A DNA stretch of 31,063 nucleotides from a virus. Under the pieces are notes generated by a model, which saw only the letters and a program-made list of their open reading frames with translations, ran no database searches and was not told the origin of the DNA. Both the position numbers and the translations under genes were made by a program. The stretch covers positions 1 to 31,063 of IMG/VR virus record IMGVR_UViG_3300032181_000323. One strand, written 5' to 3'. The first letter of the stretch is position 1; the number at the start of each line of letters is the position of its first letter. Positions 15,503 through 31,063 of the stretch are shown here, piece by piece.

Positions 15503-18500
15503 ATGCCACAAAATACTAACCTGAATAGATCCCCGTATTTCGACGACTTTGATGCGGGGAAAAACTTCTATAGGATTCTGTTCAGACCAGGGTACTCGAT
15601 CCAAGCGAGAGAGTTGACCCAGCTGCAGTCTATGCTGCAGGATCAAGTCGAACAGGTCGGCAACAGTATGTTTAAGCAGGGTCAAATGGTGATCCCTGGT
15701 GAAGTCTCGTATTCCGATACGTATGACTATGTTAAGTTAAGTAGCGTCTCTCAGGTTGCACAGAATGTAGATGGCGAGATCAATTTCGTCAAATACAATA
15801 TTTCACAGCTAGTTGGTAGAATTCTTGTCGGTCAGACTTCTGGTGTCAAGGCATTTGTTGATAACTATTCTTTCGAGACTACAACAGATGCCGACACTAT
15901 TTTTGTTAAGTATGTCAGTTCAGGTGCTGATAACACCGACGTTAAGTTTAGACAAGGCGAATCTCTTAAATTAGAATCTGCAACTACTGACAACGATCCC
16001 ACATTAGTTGTTGGTACAGATGGCATCAAACCAGCAGATACTCCTGCTATGGGGTTTGGTTCTGCTGTTAACGTCCAAAAAGGTATTTACTTTATTAATG
16101 GTCACTTCGTACAAAACGAAGCTCAGACTTTGATTTTGGAGAAGTATAGTCGTACTTCTTCGTATAAAGTTGGTTGGGATATTACAGAAACTATCGTCAC
16201 CCCAGAGGACGATCCATCCCTGAAAGATAATGCTCAGGGTTATTCAAACTATTCAGCTCCTGGTGCACATAGACTGAAGATTAATCTTAGTCTTCAAAAG
16301 TTTGATATTGATGCACCTTCTAATAAGAACTTTGTCCAGTTGGTTTATCTCCAAGAGGGCAAGATTCAAAGACAAATCAAACAAACTCCTCCTAGTCAGA
16401 TTGAGGAGATTCTTGCGCGTAGAACATATGACGAGTCTGGCGATTATATCGTCAAAAACTTTATTGCCGATCTGAAAGAGTATTACAACTCAGATGGATC
16501 TGGTTTCTATAGCACTGATGCTAATGGTCTTATTAATGGACTAACTGAGTTGCAAGCTCAGGACAAATTTATTATGAGTATTGGTCCTGGTAAAGCTTAT
16601 ATTCGTGGTTATGAAGTTGAGAGTACCGATACCAAGTATATCGAATTAGATAAAGCAAAAGAAACACAAGACAGAGAAAATACAAGACTATATTCTACAG
16701 CTTTACCAACAGTTGGTGTTCGTGGTGTGCACGGCACTGTTCCTATTAGTGCTACTAGCGATGGCGAAGCAACTCCATTTAAGAAGGTTGACTTCTATCG
16801 CAAGTTTATCGACTCTTACCTAGGCACAAACGGTAAGGATAATAGTGTTGATACTGGTGTTTTTACAGCATCAGATTTTAGAGGTACAGCTTATAATAAT
16901 GATATCGCCACGATGACTGTATGGGTTTATCCTGGTGTTGACCCTGTTAATGGCGATCCTATCGATCTCGTTACTAATACTACTGATATTGTCTATACTC
17001 CTCTCAAGACTAGTCAGGCAGCTACGGTTTACCACTACAATGGCACGTCTTATGATGAGATCAAAGTGGTTGGTGCAAGATTTAACATTAACTATAAGAC
17101 AGATCTGAATAGGGAAGTCCCTTGGGTTGGAGATACTGCTGCTGGCGGTATGAATGATGGTTCGGTTGACGTTGTTCACGAACTGGTCCTCAGAGGTTCA
17201 ATCAAAGCTCTGTTTAGCATTCACCAGTCTTATCAAGCACACGGTCCAGTCAAACTTGGCGGAGCTGGCGGTGGCGCTGGAAATGGTATCTCGCTCTATG
17301 GCAATAATAGCGGCAGTACCTATTACGGTATGATTCTGGACTATACAGCTCCTGTTCATCCGATTATTGGTCGTGGTATTGCAAGAGACTTTAAGTTTAT
17401 CAGAACTCCTACTGGATTTGATAAGACGAAAAATGTTTTTGCTTCTGACAGTCAGCAAGACACTACATTTACTTTCAGTTATACCAATCCTATTCTGTTT
17501 AGCAGAATAGTTCTAACTGGCAATCACGCTTTTGAGACTGGTTCCAATATTCAAGGTTCTATCTCTGGTGCCACTGCAGTTGTTGAAGGTGGTCTGTCTG
17601 TGGGTCAAAATGACCCAGAAAATGCTGCCCTATCTCACGCTAATACACTTGTACTGTCAAGTATTGTTGGTGAGTTTGTAGAAGGTGAAGAAATTTTTGA
17701 TATGGATGACAGTTCTAAATCCGCTGTCATTGCTGTCGAAGGTCGCATTAGTCACTTTACTGTTCCATATGGCGGCGAAAACTATGCCGAGCAGATGGAG
17801 CTTAAAATTGGGCAGAGACAATATAAAGGCAATTATGTAACTGTCAGAAGAGAAACTGCTGTTGATGGCATTAATGGACAGCAAGATTATGTCCATTCTG
17901 TTTCATTTACAGATCTCGGCAGAAGAGAAATCACAGATACTTTTACTATTCCTCCGAGCATCGAAGTGGTTGACACTGGCGGTGTTCATAGTGCAGGTGA
18001 TGAGGATGCATATGTTAGAGCTTATCTTTACAAAAACGTAATTCAAACGTTTGGTACTGAAGACCTGCGTTCTATCGGTATGACACACGGTAGTTCTTCT
18101 AAAGTGTTCACAGCTGATATTCAGTACGCTGATGTCGATTATACTAATTTTGAAACTATCAGCAACAACTTACAGTATTCTGGTAAAGCCGATTGCGACT
18201 TCATCGAATCTACAAACTATACTGCACGTCCTGCAGATGAGTTGAAAGAAGATGATCTGATTCAAATTACTATCGATGGCGTTACTTATCGTTATGAGGT
18301 TGCAAGTGCTTGCAATGCTTCTACAGATAAAGTTGGTAGAATCTATTTGAAGCAACGTCTCTTAGTTGACTTTGACGCTATCACCGTTGCCAAAGTTTCG
18401 GCAAAGGTTAGCAACTCTGGTAGGTCCAGTCTTGTTCTTCCTCTGCCTAATAGTAAGGTTGCATCTATTCTTACTAACGATACCGATACAGGTATCACTT

Positions 18501-21500
18501 ACTATTCAAGAAAGCAGTTTATTGAGTCCGTTACGATTGACGGTACGACGAATGAAATCAACATTGCTGCTCAGCTTGATTTTGGTCAGCAGCAATTTGC
18601 TCCTTTCAATCAAGGTGATTATGTAATTGAAGTCTATAATGCTGGTGCAACTACTACCAGATATGGTGGTTCTACTGGAGATATTGTGCAGGATGGCGAC
18701 GTTCTGTATGTTGATTCTTCAATGGTCACTATCAATAGTGGCACAGGAGGAAACATTGCTGGTTCTCTTGATATTAAACTGCCGTCCGATTATTTCTATC
18801 AGTCTGGTGCATTGAATCTGGCAGATATGAAGCTGAAGATTTCTTGCACTATTGAGACTCAGAAAGCGAAACCCAAGCTTAAGACTGCTGTCAAAAACTA
18901 CAGAATTTCTATTGCTTCTGATATTGATAACGAAATTATTCCTCTCAGAGGCGACAACTACGATAATCCAACTGGACAAGTTAAGTCATTCTCTGATGTT
19001 TATAGACTGAGATATGTCTATGAAGGACAAGCTGGTATTGCACCTACAGTTAACGAAGCTGGCGAAATTGTTGGAGATTCTGGTACTGATATTACTGATC
19101 ATTTCTTGTTCGATAATGGTCAGAGAGACTCTTTATACGATACGTCTTCTTTGGTTAGAAAGCCTGGTTTCAGAACTCCTACTGGCACTTTAGTTATTGG
19201 TTTTGATTACTTCAAACACTCTGAAGGTGATTTCTTCGCAGTTGATTCTTATCTGCACGAAAACGGTGTTAGATATGAAGAGATTCCTGTTTTCACTTCT
19301 AATGTTTATGGTAAGAAGTCTCTAGCAGACGTGATTGATTTCCGTCCTCTGGTTGGTACATCGGCATTTGTGCCTGGTTACCTTAACGCTAGTGTGATGG
19401 ATCCTCAGTCCAACATTGCTGAGGTGTTTACTACTGGTGGTGTTACAGCTGCTTTGCCTGCTGACACAGTTAGCACTTCTTCTATTCCTTACACATTTGC
19501 TTGCTATTACGAGTATTATGTGGACAGAATTGATACCATTTATCTCAAGAAAGATGGTAAGTTTATCGTCAAGAAGGGTGCAGGTTCTAATGATCCTCAG
19601 TCTGCACAAACTATTGACGAAGCAATTAAGGTCTTTAAGATCTATATCCCAGCTTTCACTGATAGTTTAAGGAAGGTCAAAATCTTCCCTGTTGAAAACA
19701 AGCGCTTTACAATGCGCGATATCTCCAAACTCGAAAAGAGAATTGAGCGTGTTGAAAGATATACAATGCTGTCTGTTCTTGAGCAGTCTGCGCTGAATAC
19801 ACAGATTAAGGATGCTAGTACTGGACTTGATAGATTTAAGTCTGGTTTTGCTGTTGATAACTTTGAGAACTACAGTCTCTCCAATATTAATAGTGTAGAT
19901 TTTAAAGCTGCACTTGATCTGACCCGTGGTGCTCTGCGTCCTGAGTCTAAAGAGACTAGCATTACTCTTTCGGAATTAGATCCGACACCCACTTCTAGAT
20001 TGTTGGCAAATTATGTTGTCAACAATGGTATGGTTACTCTGCCGTTCACTCAAACAGTTCTGGCACAAAACGTTTTTGCTACTGAAACTATCTCGGTCAA
20101 TCCTTTCTTGATCTTTGCATTTAAGGGGTCTGCAGAACTGACACCTAATGTTGATCCTTGGTTTGATGAGTATCAGCTTCCTTCTTTGAATAATAACGAC
20201 AACCAGACTCTTGATCCTCTGGAAGTTTATGAAGATGGTGATATTGCTCTGTCGCAAATTCACGATGTCAGCAAGATTACTATTCTTGGTAATGACTCTG
20301 AGTTTAGTAATGTCAACTCCCTGAGTTCTGATGCTCCTGACACTGCTGAAGCTGAAGTTGTTCAGTCTAAGATTACTAGTTCTTCTAACCTCGCAGCTCA
20401 GAATACAGAACTTCCGTTGCAGCAGAGCAGCACTACCATTGGGGAAAAGACTCTTTCTACCTCTCTTACACTCTATGTCAAGGAGCAGTATGTAGAGTTC
20501 CATCTTCGTAAGATGAAACCAAATACCAGACTGTATCCTTTCTTGGATAACGTTGACATTTCTGGATACGTTGTTCCCGATCGTAATTATTCTGGTACTC
20601 CTGGTTCTTCTCTCGGACTGTGGGCAGAAAATATTGTTACCGATGATGCTGGTAATGCGTCTGGTGTTATCCTCATTCCTTCGGGAAGAAAACCAGCTGC
20701 TGATAGCAATTATCAGGAAAACATTAATGACTTGACTTTTGACGCTGCTGTTGGTCTTAAGTTCCCTCTGGGCATTAAGAAAATTAAGTTTACCAGTAGT
20801 TCTACTAACGGGATGCATCCAGAGACGTTTGCAAACGTTTCCTTCTTCGCAACAGCTGTTAAAGAACCTCCCCCGAATGATATCATTGCTGTCGAAAATC
20901 TCGATCAAGATGATAGAACTGATGGAACGCAGTATACAGAAAACATTCTTAATCCTGAGATTTCTGTAGTTGACCCTCTGGCACAAACTTTCCGTGTTGA
21001 AAGCTTTGAAGGTGGCGTGTTTGCTACTTCTGTCAATATGTTCTTCTCGCAGAAAGATTCGACTCTGCCTATCTCTATCAAGCTGACTGATACAATTGCT
21101 GGTAGACCCTCCAAGAATACATTGCCTGGTTCTAATGTTGTCTTAGATCCCAACACTTATCTGCGTGTTGTTACTAGTGGTTCTCACACCTTAATCAAGG
21201 ATGAGATTATTGAAGGTGATACTTCTAATGCTCAGGGTCCTCTCTTGAAAGTTCTTGACTCTCAGAACACACCTGTTCCCGAAGTCAATGGAAACTTTAC
21301 TCTTGCTACTTCTCAGGTTTACACCTTGGTCTTGAGTAATCACAACAAAGAGACATTTATTCCTGGTGAACCCCTCGTCATTACTTCTCTGACGGTTGCT
21401 AATAATGCAAGATCTGGTGATGATATCGTTTCGATGGAAATCGTTCAAGATTCTGGTTATCTGTCTCACATTGTTATGAACGATCTGGGCGATGGATATG

Positions 21501-23746
21501 CAGGTTCTACATCTGTTACCATCGAATCTCCTAGTCTGCCTGGTGGCGTTACAGCAACAGCTGTTCCTAGCGTTACTGATCAGAAGATCTACGAAATTAA
21601 TCCTACTCTTGGTGGTAGCGAGTACACAACAGCACCTAGTGTGTTGATCGTTAGTACAAGTGCTACACAGCTTGCATCGGCAACTGCTATTATTAAATAT
21701 AACAAACCAGCTGTGAGAATGGGTGTTGCTACAGATAGCAAAGCACTTATTCCTACAGAGTTTCATTTCCAGTACCCCGTATATCTTGAAAATGACCGTG
21801 AATACGCTATTATCGTCGAAACAAATAGCACTCAGTACCAGACGTTCATCTCTCGCCTTGGCGAAACTGAGATTAATAGTAACTCTACAGTTACTACTCA
21901 GCCTCTTCTTGGTTCACTGTTTAAGAGTCAGAATAGCAATCTTTGGACCGCGAACCAATACGAAGATCTGAAGTTTGAGATTCATCGTGCGCAGTTTGAA
22001 GTTGGCAAACCTGGCGTTATTCATCTGGTCAATAATGATCTTGGATATGAGAAACTTGGTCCTGGTCCTATCAGAACTGATGCAGATGGTTCTGGCACAA
22101 CTTCGAGTCAGTTGTTTGGCGCAAACACCAAGATTATTAAGATTGACCATAAGAACCACGGTTTAAATCCTGGTTCCTATGTTGCATTGAAGAACTCTGA
22201 TGGTGTTGGTGGTTTCTCTGCCACAAGCTTGAACAATCAGATTCTCCCAGTTGTTGATGCTGGTATTGACTTCTATACATTGGCAATGCCTGTTGTTGCA
22301 GGTGGTACTGCTAGCGGTGGTGGCAACGATATTGTTGCTCTGGGTCAAGTCAAGTTCGAGAAAGCTTTGGTCAAGATTGACGCTATGGATTATCCAGAGA
22401 CCGATCTGCAGACTAGAGTTCAAACAACTAAGATCAAACCAATCGATAGTAGAGAAACTATTACTGATTATGAGTTGGAAGAGTTTGTTCCTATTATTCT
22501 GAATAAGGAGTATTACTTCCCAACACAACGTGTTATTGCTTCTAAGCTGAATGAAAAAATGTATTCTTCTCGTATGAATGAGAAGAAGGCATTCACTGTT
22601 TCGGCAACTCTCAATACAACCAACCCCAATCTTTCTCCTATTATCAATCTCAAGAATCCTAAGGCAATTCTCACAACCAACCGTGTTGAGAGTCCTACTG
22701 GAGCTGAGAGCAGATACGGTAAGAAAGTCCAGCAGGTCGAAATGTATAAGACTGTTGTGATGAGATTTACCGATAGTGCATCCACTCCCGCAACTCTGGG
22801 TTCAGCTCAAACTTTTGAAGTTACAAGTGGTATCGGTCAGGTTATTACTGGTAAAACATCTGGTACCAAAGGTGTCCTGTCTTACTGGGATGCATCTTCT
22901 CCTGGTGAAATGTATGTGAGAATTATTGAAGGTGATGGTTTCATTCTTGGTGAAGAACCTGTATTCAGTGGTTCCTCTTCTTATAACCAAGAGTGGAACT
23001 TTGATGGTGTCACCACTAACCCCTCATCTGGCGCTGCTAATGGTTTTACCTTACCTCTGAAGATTGCTGGTGATCTGTCTCTCGCTCAGTTTGATATTGA
23101 TCCAGATATCGACATTGCTAACAACACTGATACCAAGACTGGTAATGCTATTAGATGGAACCAAGAAAATTATCGCCTCATTTTCAATTCCAATGATGCA
23201 GAATTTGTAATGGGCGATCTAGTTGGTGCTGGTAATGTCACGACTGGTCTCTACGAGTCTGGTTTTGATGTTATCAATAAGAGCTTTAATGTTCCTCAGG
23301 AAATTAAATATGTTTATGATGCATATGGTTTCCTTTTCACACCAGAAAGACTTAAGAATTCTTCTAACGTCGCGAACTATGTGACTAAGGAAATCTCTCT
23401 TGATAATCCTGGCAATGGAATTACTATTAAGCTTACTGCTGCTCTGCAGGAGATTGATGATGTGATTGTGATGTTTAAGACGAAGCGTGCTTCTCAGCAA
23501 GTCTTTTTCAACGAAATCAACTGGAACTATTTTAATATGAATGGTTCTCCCGATGTGTCTGTTGCTCCTTCGACTGGTACTAACTTCTCTGCAACTACAG
23601 AATCTGAATCTGACTTCAAAGAGTATTCGTATACTGTGAATGGTCTTAAGGACTTTAACTCTTTTGCAATTAAAGTGATTATGAAGTCACGAAATCCGTC
23701 TATGCCTCCTAGAATCAGAGACTTGCGTGCTATCGCTACTTATTAA
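15503..23746 (+). CDS. Giant DUF4815-type virion/baseplate protein, 2747 aa
   Basis: The N-terminus carries the DUF4815 signature seen in phage tail proteins: NRSPYFDDFDAGKNFYRILF, then RPGYSIQARELTQLQ, then YDYVKL (about 8-75). Next come GIYFINGHFV (about 194-203) and GKAYIRGYEVE (about 368-378). The family's later block (FDYFKHSEGDFFAVDSY with VIDFRPLVG) is at about 1235-1285, so large segments are inserted between them. A helical KLEKRIERVERY stretch (about 1409-1420) precedes a conserved region. DPLAQTFRVESFEGGVFATS starts near 1823, and PVYLENDREYAIIVE to SLFKSQN lies at about 2089-2140. SGATA-type and GxGY modules occur throughout (about 103-125, 1987-2065, 2450-2500). The protein follows gp8, the position of T4 gp9/gp10, but I see no sequence match to those. 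A peripheral baseplate or fibre-attachment role is inference. The spacing to gp8 is 21 bases and the ribosome site is weak. Confidence 0.85.
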   Translation: MPQNTNLNRSPYFDDFDAGKNFYRILFRPGYSIQARELTQLQSMLQDQVEQVGNSMFKQGQMVIPGEVSYSDTYDYVKLSSVSQVAQNVDGEINFVKYNISQLVGRILVGQTSGVKAFVDNYSFETTTDADTIFVKYVSSGADNTDVKFRQGESLKLESATTDNDPTLVVGTDGIKPADTPAMGFGSAVNVQKGIYFINGHFVQNEAQTLILEKYSRTSSYKVGWDITETIVTPEDDPSLKDNAQGYSNYSAPGAHRLKINLSLQKFDIDAPSNKNFVQLVYLQEGKIQRQIKQTPPSQIEEILARRTYDESGDYIVKNFIADLKEYYNSDGSGFYSTDANGLINGLTELQAQDKFIMSIGPGKAYIRGYEVESTDTKYIELDKAKETQDRENTRLYSTALPTVGVRGVHGTVPISATSDGEATPFKKVDFYRKFIDSYLGTNGKDNSVDTGVFTASDFRGTAYNNDIATMTVWVYPGVDPVNGDPIDLVTNTTDIVYTPLKTSQAATVYHYNGTSYDEIKVVGARFNINYKTDLNREVPWVGDTAAGGMNDGSVDVVHELVLRGSIKALFSIHQSYQAHGPVKLGGAGGGAGNGISLYGNNSGSTYYGMILDYTAPVHPIIGRGIARDFKFIRTPTGFDKTKNVFASDSQQDTTFTFSYTNPILFSRIVLTGNHAFETGSNIQGSISGATAVVEGGLSVGQNDPENAALSHANTLVLSSIVGEFVEGEEIFDMDDSSKSAVIAVEGRISHFTVPYGGENYAEQMELKIGQRQYKGNYVTVRRETAVDGINGQQDYVHSVSFTDLGRREITDTFTIPPSIEVVDTGGVHSAGDEDAYVRAYLYKNVIQTFGTEDLRSIGMTHGSSSKVFTADIQYADVDYTNFETISNNLQYSGKADCDFIESTNYTARPADELKEDDLIQITIDGVTYRYEVASACNASTDKVGRIYLKQRLLVDFDAITVAKVSAKVSNSGRSSLVLPLPNSKVASILTNDTDTGITYYSRKQFIESVTIDGTTNEINIAAQLDFGQQQFAPFNQGDYVIEVYNAGATTTRYGGSTGDIVQDGDVLYVDSSMVTINSGTGGNIAGSLDIKLPSDYFYQSGALNLADMKLKISCTIETQKAKPKLKTAVKNYRISIASDIDNEIIPLRGDNYDNPTGQVKSFSDVYRLRYVYEGQAGIAPTVNEAGEIVGDSGTDITDHFLFDNGQRDSLYDTSSLVRKPGFRTPTGTLVIGFDYFKHSEGDFFAVDSYLHENGVRYEEIPVFTSNVYGKKSLADVIDFRPLVGTSAFVPGYLNASVMDPQSNIAEVFTTGGVTAALPADTVSTSSIPYTFACYYEYYVDRIDTIYLKKDGKFIVKKGAGSNDPQSAQTIDEAIKVFKIYIPAFTDSLRKVKIFPVENKRFTMRDISKLEKRIERVERYTMLSVLEQSALNTQIKDASTGLDRFKSGFAVDNFENYSLSNINSVDFKAALDLTRGALRPESKETSITLSELDPTPTSRLLANYVVNNGMVTLPFTQTVLAQNVFATETISVNPFLIFAFKGSAELTPNVDPWFDEYQLPSLNNNDNQTLDPLEVYEDGDIALSQIHDVSKITILGNDSEFSNVNSLSSDAPDTAEAEVVQSKITSSSNLAAQNTELPLQQSSTTIGEKTLSTSLTLYVKEQYVEFHLRKMKPNTRLYPFLDNVDISGYVVPDRNYSGTPGSSLGLWAENIVTDDAGNASGVILIPSGRKPAADSNYQENINDLTFDAAVGLKFPLGIKKIKFTSSSTNGMHPETFANVSFFATAVKEPPPNDIIAVENLDQDDRTDGTQYTENILNPEISVVDPLAQTFRVESFEGGVFATSVNMFFSQKDSTLPISIKLTDTIAGRPSKNTLPGSNVVLDPNTYLRVVTSGSHTLIKDEIIEGDTSNAQGPLLKVLDSQNTPVPEVNGNFTLATSQVYTLVLSNHNKETFIPGEPLVITSLTVANNARSGDDIVSMEIVQDSGYLSHIVMNDLGDGYAGSTSVTIESPSLPGGVTATAVPSVTDQKIYEINPTLGGSEYTTAPSVLIVSTSATQLASATAIIKYNKPAVRMGVATDSKALIPTEFHFQYPVYLENDREYAIIVETNSTQYQTFISRLGETEINSNSTVTTQPLLGSLFKSQNSNLWTANQYEDLKFEIHRAQFEVGKPGVIHLVNNDLGYEKLGPGPIRTDADGSGTTSSQLFGANTKIIKIDHKNHGLNPGSYVALKNSDGVGGFSATSLNNQILPVVDAGIDFYTLAMPVVAGGTASGGGNDIVALGQVKFEKALVKIDAMDYPETDLQTRVQTTKIKPIDSRETITDYELEEFVPIILNKEYYFPTQRVIASKLNEKMYSSRMNEKKAFTVSATLNTTNPNLSPIINLKNPKAILTTNRVESPTGAESRYGKKVQQVEMYKTVVMRFTDSASTPATLGSAQTFEVTSGIGQVITGKTSGTKGVLSYWDASSPGEMYVRIIEGDGFILGEEPVFSGSSSYNQEWNFDGVTTNPSSGAANGFTLPLKIAGDLSLAQFDIDPDIDIANNTDTKTGNAIRWNQENYRLIFNSNDAEFVMGDLVGAGNVTTGLYESGFDVINKSFNVPQEIKYVYDAYGFLFTPERLKNSSNVANYVTKEISLDNPGNGITIKLTAALQEIDDVIVMFKTKRASQQVFFNEINWNYFNMNGSPDVSVAPSTGTNFSATTESESDFKEYSYTVNGLKDFNSFAIKVIMKSRNPSMPPRIRDLRAIATY

Positions 23747-26256: not shown

Positions 26257-26901
26257 ATGGCAAATAAATTTATCTCAACTTCTAAAACAGGTATCGGCAC
26301 TGTCGAGACTTCTATCTACGCCGTAGAGCTGCAAGGCACGCAGGTGGAGAAACAGACTGTGATTATTGGGTGTAACCTAGCGAACACCACACAGACAGCT
26401 GTGATTGCCGAGGTTAAAATTAATAGATACCCAGCGTACTCTATCGATCCTCAGTATCCGAAAGACGATGTGTATATCGTCAGGAATGTCCCTATTCCTG
26501 CAGGATCTGCTTTTGAAGTAATGCAGGGTCAAAAAATCATTCTGCAATATAACCCAGATGGTTACAGACTCTCCACACCTGCTGTTAGCGATACACTTGC
26601 TGCAGACGTGACAAGTGCTAGTGTTGTGTCGATTACTATCAGCGACAACACTGGTCCTAAATTTAATCAGCAAGATTTCATTAAAGTCAATAATGAAATT
26701 ATGCAAATCACATCACTTGCAGGTGCAGGTGACACTACATTGAATGTGGATAGAGCACAGGCAAACTCTACTGCCACAACTCACACCAGTGGAGACTCAA
26801 TTCAAAAGATTGACGTTGGATTGGGTGATGAAATTCTCGTTACTTGTGATACTACAGGTGCTCTTGATTGCATCACTAGTGTTATGGAGGTCTCGGTCTG
26901 A
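26257..26901 (+). CDS. Beta-rich virion structural protein with inserted module, 214 aa
   Basis: Residues 1-107 and about 188-214 look like the two halves of one small beta-sandwich: ...PAGSAFEVMQGQKIILQ joins logically to GLGDEILVTCDTTGALD, the pattern seen in short marine-phage structural proteins. Between them, at about 108-187, lies an extra segment with DFIKVNNEIMQITSLAGAGD and a following NVDRAQ...H..GD pattern, akin to the GFP...RG modules of the gp7-like giant. Family and function are not known for certain; a small baseplate or fibre-associated protein is likely. Its TGA stop overlaps the ATG of the next fibre gene (TGATG), showing coupling. Confidence 0.8.
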   Translation: MANKFISTSKTGIGTVETSIYAVELQGTQVEKQTVIIGCNLANTTQTAVIAEVKINRYPAYSIDPQYPKDDVYIVRNVPIPAGSAFEVMQGQKIILQYNPDGYRLSTPAVSDTLAADVTSASVVSITISDNTGPKFNQQDFIKVNNEIMQITSLAGAGDTTLNVDRAQANSTATTHTSGDSIQKIDVGLGDEILVTCDTTGALDCITSVMEVSV

Positions 26902-28271
26902 TGGCATATCTTGGACTTAATCCTGAAGCTTACGTTTCAAAAATCAAGGAGCTCCAAGATATCTCGTCGCAATTCAACGGGACAGATACAAACTTTGAGC
27001 TTCGCACAACTAATGGTGATGTAGTTACAGTTGCACAATCTATGCAACTCACTGTTAGTTTGAATGGTGTTGCTCAGCAACCCAATACTGCTAGCGCTTC
27101 AAATGCTCCTGGATCCTTCTGGGTTCAGGGAGACAGAATTTACTTCTCCGAAGCTCCTGAAACAGGAGATACTTTCTTTGGTCAAGTTCAAAACTCTGTT
27201 GTCAATAATATGGATAGATCGGAGATTTTCTCCGAGACATTCACTGCCAATGGCATTGACTCTGACTTTACAATGACCAAAGCGCCACCGAATGTGCACG
27301 CGATTCTGGTGACTATTGACGGTCTGGTGCAACATAAGGATGCATATACTCTGGTTCAACAAAACCTAGTTCTTCGCTTAGACGATGCTCCTGATATTGG
27401 ATCTATCATCGAAGTCACTCACATCGGTTTCTCTTCGTCCCTGGTTGGACCTACCAGTGCTGTTAGTTCTTTTTACGGAAGATCTGGTGCCGTCGAACTC
27501 CTACAAACCGACGACATAAATGTTAGAGATATTGACTGCTACGGTTCTATTGGTGTCGGTAATTACTCTCCTAGTTTCAAGATCGACATTGACGGTGCTT
27601 CTAATACTAGCAACTGTCTTAGAGTAAAAGCTCAGACTTTACCGACGATTACATTAGAGTCGGCAGACACTGGCGGCAAAACGAGGTTAATCCAAAATGG
27701 CGATGACTTTCATATGTTCGCTGATGTTGGTGGTGTTACTACTGACATCTTTGTGGCAACTCAAGGATATATTACCACTCAGAATTCTATTGGTAGTTTC
27801 GCTGATAGAACTACTGTTAACATTGCGGGTGATTCCACTGGTGTTACCCAATCTCTGAACGATAATACTACAAAGATTGCTACTACAGCTTTTGTTCGCC
27901 AGGAAGTTGCTGACCTCATTGGGTCCGCCCCTGGTGCACTCGACACATTACAAGAATTAGCTACCGCACTCGGGGATGACCCCAACTTCTCCACTTCTGT
28001 GTTTAATGCTATTGCATTGAAAGCAGATGCTACCAGTGGTACTACAAATCTACAAACCCTAAACAATGCTACCATTAATGGGGTTTCTATTCAAGCTGAT
28101 CCTGGTGGTCCTGCACCTAACAGGATTCGTCTTGGTAATGTTATTTTCCCTGCTACCCAAGTTGCCGATATTGGCTATAACCTCGTGGTTGCTAGTAGTA
28201 ACATTGACGGAACCGTAAATATGGAATTCAGTGACCGCAATGAAATGCGGGACATCTGGTTGTTCAGCTAA
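26901..28271 (+). CDS. Tail-fibre protein with LDGV and fibre-repeat modules, 456 aa
   Basis: The N-terminus MAYLGLNPEAYVSKIKELQD, then SSQFNGTDTNFEL, is paralogous to the 389-aa fibre downstream. Two modules follow with VSLNGVAQQP (about 50-59) and VTIDGLVQHKDAYTL (about 145-159). Next come GRSGAVELLQTDDI (about 193-206) and a SIGVGNYSPSFKIDI variant of the fibre GIG..SP motif (about 215-229). At about 318-368 lie NDNTTKIATTAFVRQEV and PGALDTLQELATALGDDPNF, a hallmark phage tail-fibre repeat (Phage_fiber_2 type). It should form a trimeric fibre. It is coupled to the preceding gene. The C-terminus VNMEFSDRNEMRDIWLFS is short, so tip function may rest with a partner such as the glycine-rich protein downstream (inference). 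Confidence 0.88.
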   Translation: MAYLGLNPEAYVSKIKELQDISSQFNGTDTNFELRTTNGDVVTVAQSMQLTVSLNGVAQQPNTASASNAPGSFWVQGDRIYFSEAPETGDTFFGQVQNSVVNNMDRSEIFSETFTANGIDSDFTMTKAPPNVHAILVTIDGLVQHKDAYTLVQQNLVLRLDDAPDIGSIIEVTHIGFSSSLVGPTSAVSSFYGRSGAVELLQTDDINVRDIDCYGSIGVGNYSPSFKIDIDGASNTSNCLRVKAQTLPTITLESADTGGKTRLIQNGDDFHMFADVGGVTTDIFVATQGYITTQNSIGSFADRTTVNIAGDSTGVTQSLNDNTTKIATTAFVRQEVADLIGSAPGALDTLQELATALGDDPNFSTSVFNAIALKADATSGTTNLQTLNNATINGVSIQADPGGPAPNRIRLGNVIFPATQVADIGYNLVVASSNIDGTVNMEFSDRNEMRDIWLFS

Positions 28272-28283
28272 ATATCAAGGAGG
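28267..28283 (+). promoter_or_regulatory. Late-type box GCTAAATA plus strong ribosome site AAGGAGG
   Basis: GCTAAATA (28267-28274) covers the TAA stop of the 456-aa fibre. AAGGAGG (28277-28283) is one of the strongest Shine-Dalgarno matches in the window and sits 12 bases before the ATG at 28296. The promoter call is weaker than the ribosome-site call, because transcription starting after the box would leave little leader before the Shine-Dalgarno. Confidence 0.5.
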
Positions 28284-28295
28284 ATACAGTATACA

Positions 28296-28670
28296 ATGGC
28301 TCTCTCAAGAGGAAAACTTACTGGCAATGGGAAGAACATTCAGTTCGTCCCTGCGGGTACTGCTGGTACGATTTACGTAAATCCTGCAGCTACAAAGACA
28401 TATTTCAAAGGTTTTGTTGTTTTTAACGGCAACACTACTACTGAAACTGTGAACCTGTATCTGGCAGAAGACAATGTTGGTGCACTCGATACTGTCGATG
28501 CAGCAACCAAACCCCAACAGTTTATCAGACAAGAGCTGAGTTCTGGTGAAACATTCTATGTTGAACTGAACTATCCTATCGTCCTAGAAGACGAGAACGA
28601 TGCAATCTATGGTCTGACAGACACGGCAAATAAAGTCACTGTTATCTTAATTGGCGATAAGGAGTCGTAA
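28296..28670 (+). CDS. Small beta-rich structural protein, 124 aa
   Basis: The protein has alternating beta strands throughout: FKGFVVFNGNTTTETVNLYL at about 36-55, then SSGETFYVELNYPIVLED (about 87-104) and a final ANKVTVILIGDKES. It has no signal peptide or membrane segment. The pattern (a strand, a 'SGETF.VE' turn, 'DAIYG.TD', a last strand) is like small beta-sandwich structural proteins of T4-like marine phages and like the outer halves of the 214-aa protein, but I cannot name the family. It has a strong ribosome site (AAGGAGG). Its stop overlaps the start of the glycine-rich gene (TAATG), which suggests the two products act together, for example as a fibre tip and its base or chaperone. 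Confidence 0.8.
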   Translation: MALSRGKLTGNGKNIQFVPAGTAGTIYVNPAATKTYFKGFVVFNGNTTTETVNLYLAEDNVGALDTVDAATKPQQFIRQELSSGETFYVELNYPIVLEDENDAIYGLTDTANKVTVILIGDKES

Positions 28671-29650
28671 TGCCATTTCGTATTGGTAGTCTTAAAACTC
28701 TGAACTACGAAAGTCGGTTAGACAATATGACCGACGAGGGACATTTGCGTCCTTTTTACGATACGACTAAAATAAGAAATACTCCCATAGAAGCTGTCCG
28801 CACTATTCGCGTGACACCCCAAAATGGTGATCCAGTAATCAATCATAATCTTGATAGTCAAGGCGCTCTCGTTCTGGACAGAGGAGAATATATTTTAGAG
28901 ACAGTTGTCGTTAATGATGCTGTCTTTACTGTTCAGTTCACGATGTGGGGTGCAGGTGGAGCTGGTGGATCGCAAGCAGGTGGTATTGGTGGCGGTTCTG
29001 GATATACAGCTGGTGGTTTAAAACTCATCGCTGGACAGCAGTATTATATTTGCGTTGGCGGTGGTGGCGATCCCAGGTCATCTGCATCGGTCACTTCTGG
29101 TGGTGAGTGTGGTGGTGCTCTTGGTGGTCTTTCTGGTAATGAATATGGTGGATGTGGCGGAGGACTCACTGGAGTCTTCCGTAATTCTGCTGTTCAATCA
29201 AATGCACTTTTGATTGCAGCTGGTGGCGGGGGTGCTGGTGCTGATCAAAGTGCTGGTGCTGGCGGTGGAGCAAATGGTCAAATTGGTCAACTGTTCGATC
29301 AGAGAGGTGGCGGCGGAGGTTCCCAAACCGAGGGAGGTTTCGCTGGTTTTACCGATGCATTAGACGGCGCTTCTTTAAACGGTGGTAGAGCAGGTGCTCT
29401 ACTAACTTATCCTGGTGGCGGCGGTGGCGCTGGATACTACGGCGGCGGTGGCGGTGGTAGTGGTGATATCAATGGTCACGGTGGAGGTGGTGGTTCCAGC
29501 TTCATTGACCAGACTCGTATCATTGCTGGTTCTACCGCAGCAGGAAACAATAGACTTCCTGCAAATGGTGCCGATCCTGATAGAGGAGTCGCTGGTCAAG
29601 GCGGTCTCCAAAATCAGTCTGGCACTGATGGTAAATTTATCATCACCTAA
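28670..29650 (+). CDS. Glycine-rich putative adhesin, 326 aa
   Basis: The first ~85 residues form an ordinary domain (PFRIGSLKTLNYESRLDNMT, then INHNLDSQGALVLDRGEYIL). From about residue 90 (FTMWGAGGAGGSQAGGIGGG) to 295 the protein is dominated by glycine runs such as GGGGGAGYYGGGGGGSGD, broken by short hydrophobic strands (YYICVGGGG, NALLIAAGGGG, SSFIDQTRIIAG). It ends GTDGKFIIT. Glycine-rich segments of this type occur in phage receptor-binding tips (for example gp38 adhesins of some T4-like phages, which form polyglycine-II sandwiches) and in the Gly_rich domain family. Role as a host-binding adhesin is inferred from composition and from its position among fibre genes. It is translationally coupled to the 124-aa gene. 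The compositional bias looks real, since the frame has a clean start, stop and flanking genes. Confidence 0.85.
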   Translation: MPFRIGSLKTLNYESRLDNMTDEGHLRPFYDTTKIRNTPIEAVRTIRVTPQNGDPVINHNLDSQGALVLDRGEYILETVVVNDAVFTVQFTMWGAGGAGGSQAGGIGGGSGYTAGGLKLIAGQQYYICVGGGGDPRSSASVTSGGECGGALGGLSGNEYGGCGGGLTGVFRNSAVQSNALLIAAGGGGAGADQSAGAGGGANGQIGQLFDQRGGGGGSQTEGGFAGFTDALDGASLNGGRAGALLTYPGGGGGAGYYGGGGGGSGDINGHGGGGGSSFIDQTRIIAGSTAAGNNRLPANGADPDRGVAGQGGLQNQSGTDGKFIIT

Positions 29651-29670: not shown

Positions 29671-30840
29671 ATGGCGTACTTAGGCGTTACACCCAAAATT
29701 GGTAACATCCGTAAATTGGATGACGTTGCTGCACAGTTCAATGGTGTGGCAACTGTGTTCAACTTGCGTGTTGGTGGTCAGGTAATTTTCCCTGGTTCGC
29801 CTTTGCAGCTTCTCATCTCACTTGGTGGTGTGATGCAGGAAGCAAATGTTTCCTATCAAATTAATAATGACCAGATTACGTTCTCCGATCCTCCTAACCC
29901 TGGTATCGACTTCTTTGGTCTTGTTATCGGTGACACTATTGATGTTGGTGAGCCTTCTGATGGTACGATCAATGCCGTTAAGTTAAATCAAGGTGCCACC
30001 TTTACAATGGGTGGTCTAAACGTTAATGGTGCTGTCGCTATTGATAGTTCCACACTGGTGGTGGATGAAATCAATCACCGTGTTGGTATTGGTAGTGCAT
30101 CTCCCAACAACAGACTGTCTGTTTCAGCTGGCGATATCGAATTAGATCCTACTCAGTTATTGGTTTGGGGCGGTGCTGCAAATAAATCTCAGATTCAAGG
30201 TGCAAACCAAAACCTTGTTATCAAATCTGATGCTGCTACAAATGATGGATCTATTCAGTTGAATGGTGGTAGCGTTATCTTAAACAACAATCTAACTTTT
30301 GGAGTTGCTGGAGGAGTCAGTAACGTTGTTGCTGCTGGTGCTCATATGAGATTCTATGACTCTGGTCAGAGCACAAATGCATTCTTGTCTGGAAGCAATG
30401 TAGGTGTCACCCTTAATCGCGAGACCAGCATTAACGGTGCTTTACTCTGCAGTAGCACTATCAGAGCTGCAGATCGGATTATGATCGAGACATTTAACAA
30501 TGACGACCATATTAATATTACTGATTATACTGGTATTTCTGCTGGGACTTTAACAACTACCGCTGGTACAGAAGCTTTCGATACTCTGACTGCGGCAAAT
30601 GTCAGAGGTGCTAAGTATCTGGTTCACGCTTCTTATGGTGGTGACGTTTCTACTAGCGAGATCATTGTGACACATAATGGTACAGATGCATTTGTAACGA
30701 TGTTTGGTGATGTTCATACCAATCCTGGCAACGCTGTCGCTACATTCACAGTGGAGCTTACGGGTGGAAATGTAGAGGTCAGAGCGACTGGTACAGTTGG
30801 AACCTTTATCCAATTCACTCGATTCACAATGAATGTGTAA
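29671..30840 (+). CDS. Tail-fibre protein, 389 aa, paralogue of the upstream fibres
   Basis: The N-terminus MAYLGVTPKIGNIRKLDDVA, then QFNGVATVFNLR, and the following LLISLGGVMQEANVSY (about 50-65) are paralogous to residues 1-100 of the 456-aa fibre. HRVGIGSASPNNRLSVSAGD (about 137-156) is a classic fibre GIG.(S)P..RL.V motif. Residues about 303-389 (EIIVTHNGTDAFVTMFGD, then LTGGNVEV) match the C-terminal domain of the 513-aa fibre. The gene therefore looks like a chimera of the two: the N-terminus of one fibre and the C-terminus of another. Ribosome site AAAGGA lies just upstream. Role: host-contact fibre, type undetermined. Confidence 0.87.
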   Translation: MAYLGVTPKIGNIRKLDDVAAQFNGVATVFNLRVGGQVIFPGSPLQLLISLGGVMQEANVSYQINNDQITFSDPPNPGIDFFGLVIGDTIDVGEPSDGTINAVKLNQGATFTMGGLNVNGAVAIDSSTLVVDEINHRVGIGSASPNNRLSVSAGDIELDPTQLLVWGGAANKSQIQGANQNLVIKSDAATNDGSIQLNGGSVILNNNLTFGVAGGVSNVVAAGAHMRFYDSGQSTNAFLSGSNVGVTLNRETSINGALLCSSTIRAADRIMIETFNNDDHINITDYTGISAGTLTTTAGTEAFDTLTAANVRGAKYLVHASYGGDVSTSEIIVTHNGTDAFVTMFGDVHTNPGNAVATFTVELTGGNVEVRATGTVGTFIQFTRFTMNV

Positions 30841-30899: not shown

Positions 30900-31063
30900 A
30901 TGGCAACGTCAAACATAAATTTTAATGCCAAAAACGGCTTGTCCGTTGCTGGTACTGAAGTAGTAGACGGCTCTCGAAATCTGCGGAATATCGCAACGGG
31001 AAACATCACTGGGAACCTGGACATCGGCGGCGACGTGAACCTTACTGGTACTAATAAAACATT
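30900..31063 (+). CDS. N-terminus of another tail-fibre-like gene (partial)
   Basis: An ATG at 30900 opens a frame that runs off the right edge (54 codons plus two bases seen). It starts MATSNINFNAKNGLSVAGTE and continues VVDGSRNLRNIATGNI then GNLDIGGDVNLTGTN. The NGLSV.GTEV.D.SRNL.NI pattern followed by G.L...GDVNL repeats is the usual beginning of marine T4-like phage fibre proteins. It has a perfect late promoter and a purine-rich ribosome site upstream, so the start is well supported. The C-terminal part, which would show the tip domain, is outside the window. Confidence 0.8.
   Translation, partial: MATSNINFNAKNGLSVAGTEVVDGSRNLRNIATGNITGNLDIGGDVNLTGTNKT

Follow-up and report, generated by a model that had tools for sequence, protein, structure and literature searches.

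What does a small glycine-rich protein do in a T4-like phage when it is encoded immediately behind a small beta protein, within a cluster of fibre-type genes? To our knowledge, most receptor-binding proteins of T4-like cyanophages have yet to be assigned. An earlier note on this DNA had put the protein forward as a receptor-binding tip resembling the polyglycine adhesins of other T4-like phages, perhaps produced in equal amounts with its base or chaperone. The DNA analysed, hereafter the window, is a 31-kb virus fragment (31,063 nucleotides) whose left part has the baseplate-region gene order of T4-like cyanophages, as in S-H9-1: first a gene for 132 aa at the gp25 position, next the gp6-type gene (604 aa), and then two giant genes on either side of one for 606 aa at the gp8 position; all but gp6 are named by position. 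The 40 best matches listed for the 604-aa baseplate gene, which lies upstream of the pair, are to Synechococcus phages or Cyanophage S-RIM32 (~49-52%). Photo_RC genes, a family that includes psbA/psbD, were found in two of the nine related contigs searched (both long), which makes a cyanobacterium the likely host of this lineage.

Structural-type genes run from 24019 onward and include a 456-aa protein that matches phrog_2631 'tail fiber protein' (E 1e-22) and a 389-aa protein that matches phrog_18673, likewise 'tail fiber protein' (E 2e-23). Within the 456-aa protein (window 26901-28271), residues ~292-384 resemble tail fibre or tail proteins of enterobacterial phages among the matches listed, residues 19-223 match a tail fiber protein of S-SRM01, and Mycobacterium phages account for most of the 531 records that match. 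At the other end, a further gene, served by a good ribosome site, begins at 30900 and is cut off by the end of the window (30900-31063); its counterpart in the related contig G002 encodes a 75-aa protein. The features on which the analysis centres are as follows.

28277 to 28283, plus strand: ribosome site AAGGAGG of the 124-aa gene, read from the sequence (-11.4 kcal/mol)
28296 to 28670, plus strand: 124-aa partner, a predicted jelly-roll beta protein of phrog_20100, a family of unknown function (ORF, AlphaFold, fold comparison)
28659 to 28664, plus strand: ribosome site AAGGAG of the 326-aa gene, within the partner's coding sequence (sequence, -8.8 kcal/mol)
28670 to 29650, plus strand: 326-aa glycine-rich protein, whose ATG shares one base with the upstream TAA (ORF)
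28670 to 28801, plus strand: residues 1-44, conserved N-terminal module, a putative docking segment (26 of 44 columns invariant)
28802 to 28945, plus strand: residues 45-92, beta strands that run into the glycine-rich domain and probably belong to a TNF-like domain (model, alignment)
28934 to 29518, plus strand: residues 89-283, glycine-rich domain, Pfam ALK_LTK_GRD (E 3.1e-12)
29519 to 29647, plus strand: residues 284-326, C-terminal segment, for which two strands are predicted at 288-291 and 322-325 (model, alignment)
29671 to 30840, plus strand: 389-aa fibre-type protein whose residues 150-280 vary strongly and which may take part in the pair's function (PHROG, alignment)

The overlap of the 326-aa start with the 124-aa stop is thus as the earlier note had described it. 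The ribosome site of the 124-aa gene, said there to be among the strongest in the window, has the most favourable duplex energy of the 13 starts scored (456-aa gene, -10.0 kcal/mol), by a scoring that used a generic anti-SD tail. Scans of IMG/VR returned 29 loci with the 124-aa query and 24 with the 326-aa query. Every contig with a 326-aa relative also appears in the 124-aa list, and the two genes are neighbours in 24/24, overlapping by one base in 13, abutting in 10 and separated by a 2-base gap in one. As for the remaining five 124-aa loci, one ends before the next gene (L026), three precede something else (L027-L029) and one was left out (L030); in the named phage S-CBWM1 (L001), too, the 124-aa relative precedes something other than a 326-aa relative. 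From these counts, the 124-aa protein is seen without the glycine-rich one, never the reverse. The pair was found only in contigs of uncultured T4-like phages, probably cyanophages.

The 326-aa protein contains 87 glycines, 73 of them among the 195 residues at 89-283, and six glycine runs of at least four, where shuffled versions average 1.1 and none of 2000 reaches six. Its three cysteines lie at positions 128, 147 and 162; C128 and C147 are invariant in 13/13 sequences, and C162 is replaced by Ser in three of the 13. Both the long glycine runs and the cysteines had been pointed out previously, for a span (28930-29560) that does lie within this reading frame but covers only about residues 87-297 of it. 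The sole Pfam family found on the protein is ALK_LTK_GRD (PF12810), at 47.4 bits against a curated cut-off of 24.5, and the match recurs at E<=0.001 in every one of the 13 aligned sequences, that of the window among them. Of eight shuffled copies made, three were scanned along with one reversed copy, and none of these four gave a Pfam match at E<=1; composition alone therefore does not explain the match. The protein's PHROG matches are to families of unknown function, and NCBIfam had no match for the three proteins scanned.

At the N-terminus, the invariant columns of the 1-44 module were counted over 10 sequences. Contigs with the module were the 24 that carry the whole protein and no others; thus tips were not seen to be exchanged on it, in a scan whose patterns were derived from our own alignment and could miss distant relatives. 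Against a phage collection, tblastn returned nothing for the first 100 residues and nothing for the full protein, the latter being uninformative because of the low-complexity filter. No PDB chain was matched by sequence with the protein or its profile A1, a scan of genome contigs with A1 gave 61 pattern matches and no confirmed relative, and A1 matched 0/10 named phages in a search run without a positive control.

The earlier note had likened the protein to the polyglycine adhesins of other T4-like phages, and this kinship was not supported. GP38 and Gp38_N did not match the 326-aa protein at E<=1, while the gp38 proteins of S16 and AR1, used as positive controls, matched both (GP38, 4e-73 and 5e-73; Gp38_N, 1e-19 and 2e-21) and gave no ALK_LTK_GRD match at E<=1. 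As the Pfam families differ in both directions, membership of the gp38 family was rejected.

AlphaFold modelled the 326-aa protein poorly, with a mean pLDDT of 45.7 and 206 of 326 residues below 50 (segments 1-41, 134-165, 173-181 and 185-307). The model is better at residues 41-130 (54-85 per ten-residue block) and at the last residues; residues 1-41 are predicted without helix, but at a pLDDT of 30-40. When this model was compared with the PDB using Foldseek, the top 20 chains were all ALK/LTK (best E 3.1e-4), with TM-scores of just 0.12-0.31, and the Pam3 fibre ranked 29th (E 1.8). In a second structural comparison, ranks 1-14 comprised 12 ALK/LTK entries, the Pam3 fibre 7yfw (Z 7.6, 141 aligned, 3.8 A) and the Bxb1 tail tip 9d93, chain 9d93_Qb (Z 7.2, 140 aligned, 3.7 A), spanning Z 9.0-6.8, and unrelated folds followed from rank 15 at Z 2.5 and below. 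The S16 gp38 structure (6F45) was absent among the matches listed by either tool. The protein may hold a beta domain with an inserted lattice of glycine strands: the best matches of the model, at Z up to 9.0, are ALK/LTK, but most of its glycine-rich part has a pLDDT <50. The structure prediction that the earlier note had called for points to ALK/LTK, the Pam3 fibre and the Bxb1 tail tip, from a low-confidence model. The drop in Z is clear; a Z near 8, below which the tool warns that a match may reflect merely a common arrangement, supports an ALK/LTK-Pam3 fold without proving it.

PF12810 was matched in 10 of 16 records searched and was absent there from S-CBWM1, S-PM2, S-H9-1, S-SRM01 and two of 12 contigs. 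In a further nine (P-SSM2, syn9, S-SSM7, S-SM1, S-SKS1, S-CAM1, the podophage HTVC019P (NC_020483), Bxb1 and S16) it was matched in none, and no control matched there either. Since Bxb1 has a matching structure yet no PF12810 match, absence by sequence is weak evidence.

The 124-aa partner was predicted with greater confidence (mean pLDDT 82) as an all-beta protein without helix, in keeping with its earlier description as a beta protein. In the second structural comparison its nearest matches were jelly rolls, namely nucleoplasmin-type domains (Z 9.3), a trimeric cement protein of a phage (Z 9.0) and Ena spore fibres (Z 8.4). Because Foldseek gave no match at E<=0.001, the likeness is drawn from this second comparison only, and the predicted jelly roll is a common arrangement that shows no function. 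A PDB search with the 124-aa profile produced three matches at E 0.99-1.1, and hhalign of the protein against five neighbouring proteins detected no kinship. Its surroundings elsewhere point to fibres: a weak P-SSM2 relative (E 0.005) sits between two genes annotated tail fibre, and the S-CBWM1 relative (38%) lies just downstream of a gene annotated tail fiber protein. In S-CBWM1 the 124-aa relative stands before a phrog_17104 protein (L001:6359-7177), and at another locus before a 246-aa protein without family match (L028:5357-6097). The simpler interpretation is that the 124-aa protein has a structural role close to fibres.

Variability was measured on 13 sequences, the window and 12 of the 24 loci, the other 12 being truncated or seemingly near-identical to those used, as judged by identity to the query. 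Mean pairwise identity was 0.765 over the whole 326-aa protein, with residues 89-283 at 0.81 and residues 41-92 at 0.60. Among the neighbours it was 0.81 (513 aa), 0.88 (217 aa), 0.81 (214 aa), 0.81 (456 aa), 0.80 (124 aa) and 0.69 (389 aa); the giant protein at 15503-23746, whose end diverges too (56-100% across the matched part), was left out of this comparison because its alignment is incomplete. The lowest ten-residue block of the glycine-rich part went down to 0.41, which is also the minimum of the neighbour of 513 aa. With fixed ten-residue blocks the lowest values were those of 101-110 (0.52) and of 41-90 (0.58-0.63). Glycine positions of the domain were more conserved (0.94) than its other positions (0.73). 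The ratio pN/pS was 0.31 in the glycine-rich part (pS 0.45) and 0.44 in residues 41-92, values that are rough because pS is high (0.45-0.63).

As a yardstick, gp38 of five T-even phages was compared with gp35, gp36 and holin of the same phages, giving 0.68 against 0.97, 0.89 and 0.98, with ten-residue blocks of gp38 down to 0.19 and many indels. Seven T-even records had been hand-picked from a listing of 30 and five were compared, ATK47 and slur03 being left out since the gene there is shorter, at 552 bases (annotated 'tail fiber assembly' and 'tail fibers'); S16 was added in a second count. By this yardstick the 326-aa protein is not a hypervariable tip. The hypervariability expected of a receptor-binding tip was thus not found, the domain at 0.81 being like its neighbours and lacking hypervariable loops of the gp38 kind, in a comparison among uncultured contigs.

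The 389-aa protein encoded next door behaves differently. Over 13 sequences its residues 1-130 average 0.88 and residues 281-388 average 0.79, while residues 150-280 average 0.40 and fall to 0.28 between pairs. The first 88 residues are common to the 456-aa protein (E 3e-13), and part of the last third is common to the 513-aa protein (E 2e-8). With its ends shared in this way with two upstream proteins, the 389-aa protein shows that the cluster reuses fibre modules. Judged by its sequence, this modular protein with a variable middle is a better candidate for strain specificity than the 326-aa protein, although the variable middle may instead be a shaft on which constraint is relaxed.

Another ALK_LTK_GRD protein, distinct from the first, was also observed (L082:5422-6369, minus strand, contig G002; 315 aa, E 2e-7). 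It lies ~52 kb from the first in two related contigs, its gene overlaps by 4 bases that of a 417-aa protein matching tail-fibre PHROGs, and it was found only in those two contigs in the close-relative scan of IMG/VR. A PDB sequence search with it returned nothing. It may be a more exchangeable tip.

We consider it fairly probable that the 326-aa protein is the cap or tip of a tail- or baseplate-associated fibre in a T4-like cyanophage, of the 'TNF-like plus glycine-rich' kind represented by Pam3. What stands of the original tip proposal is that the domain is of a kind proposed for phage receptor-binding tips and that the gene lies in a fibre-like cluster after a small beta protein; what has found no support is the kinship with gp38 and the hypervariability. 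The low variability may also be taken to indicate a conserved structural cap that closes or decorates the fibre or baseplate without host recognition, which we regard as a somewhat unlikely but substantial alternative. In its favour, the domain resembles most neighbours (0.80-0.88, the 389-aa protein excepted) in identity, has a pN/pS of 0.31 (pS 0.45), shares the minimum block of the 513-aa neighbour, and follows an N-terminal module confined to the contigs with the same protein. Against it, Pam3 gp24 and a gp24-like Klebsiella fibre, both built in this way, are proposed to bind the host (PMC9608196, PMC12671077), and a receptor common to the hosts would likewise keep a tip constant.

The alternatives that concern the partner and the adhesin family fare worse. 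A role of the 124-aa protein as the tip's dedicated folding chaperone, like that of gp25 for gp24 in Pam3, agrees with its being small and adjacent, having a strong ribosome site and preceding the tip in 24/24 contigs that have one. Yet gp25 consists of a beta sandwich and a trimerising alpha-helical domain (PMC9608196), whereas no helix is present in the 124-aa model, the best matches listed for it are jelly rolls, including the trimeric phage cement protein and Ena fibres, and its relatives stand beside other proteins in S-CBWM1 and L027-L029. Given the jelly-roll prediction and these relatives, the protein is more likely structural than a dedicated chaperone, and we hold the chaperone role, which the earlier note had offered as an option, to be improbable. 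A Tfa-like chaperone was dropped as well, the all-beta jelly-roll model being unlike the Pam3 sandwich-plus-helix; a chaperone encoded elsewhere is compatible with the data, the window being a 31-kb fragment. A true gp38-type polyglycine adhesin of T4-like phages, suggested by the similar composition and the position among fibre-type genes, is very improbable given the family searches described above, in which the S16 and AR1 controls matched strongly and did so without ALK_LTK_GRD, and given that the 326-aa protein has no hypervariable blocks with indels.

Under the favoured reading of a cap or tip, residues 1-44 would dock the 326-aa protein, possibly as a trimer, to another virion protein, and a beta domain of the TNF-like kind together with a glycine-rich domain of packed extended glycine strands would form the outward end, an arrangement like that of Pam3 gp24 and of the part of ALK/LTK that binds ligand. 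The jelly-roll protein of 124 aa would likely serve as the mount or as a neighbouring structural subunit. The tip would most likely touch a surface component common to the hosts of the lineage, with strain specificity sitting elsewhere, for example in the adjoining 389-aa protein. More speculatively, and in our judgement doubtful as a whole, a near-constant ALK/LTK-type tip, kept by a whole lineage of T4-like cyanophages on a coupled jelly-roll subunit, would bind a component that their cyanobacterial hosts share, and the variable fibre next door would choose the strain; if true, this would be a two-part system of a constant grip and a variable key. A small, separately encoded and conserved tip candidate of a solvable kind offers a tractable starting point, and its contrast with the variable block in the next gene points to the protein in which strain specificity could be tested.

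Several known systems invite comparison. The gp38 proteins of T-even phages and S16 are, like the 326-aa protein, glycine-rich and encoded beside fibre genes, and a tip role is known for them; they carry hypervariable blocks, which the 326-aa protein does not. For T2-type gp38, PMC12892980 describes hypervariable loops on a polyglycine sandwich and an interaction of PP01 gp38 with OmpC. ALK/LTK share with the 326-aa protein the glycine-rich (TG) domain PF12810, which provides both the family match at residues 89-283 and the best structural matches; they are animal receptors, and the domain alone is held in common. The tail-tip chain 9d93_Qb of the mycobacteriophage Bxb1 resembles the model in structure and comes from a genome unmatched by PF12810.

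Pam3, a contractile-tailed cyanophage, is the only one with a fibre of this kind met in our literature search, and others may be in print. As described in PMC9608196, gp24 is built from a helical shaft, a TNF-like domain and six loops that form a glycine-rich domain, and its authors liken it to C. elegans ALK and S16 gp38; residues at the distal ends are proposed as host-binding, the statement of a hypervariable distal tip and conserved stem rests on a comparison of the six loops of gp24, and the chaperone gp25 was undetected in virions. Host-adapted mutants of a Klebsiella phage whose fibre is gp24-like carry changes at two residues of the glycine-rich domain (PMC12671077). Like the 326-aa protein as modelled, at low confidence, gp24 has a glycine-rich end on a beta domain. 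Where gp24 has a long N-terminal helical shaft and the chaperone gene gp25, the 326-aa protein has a short N-terminal module, conserved and of unpredicted fold, and a partner encoded upstream that is predicted to be all beta. It is plausible that the 326-aa protein adds another example of the known ALK/LTK-Pam3 kind, its kinship corrected from gp38.
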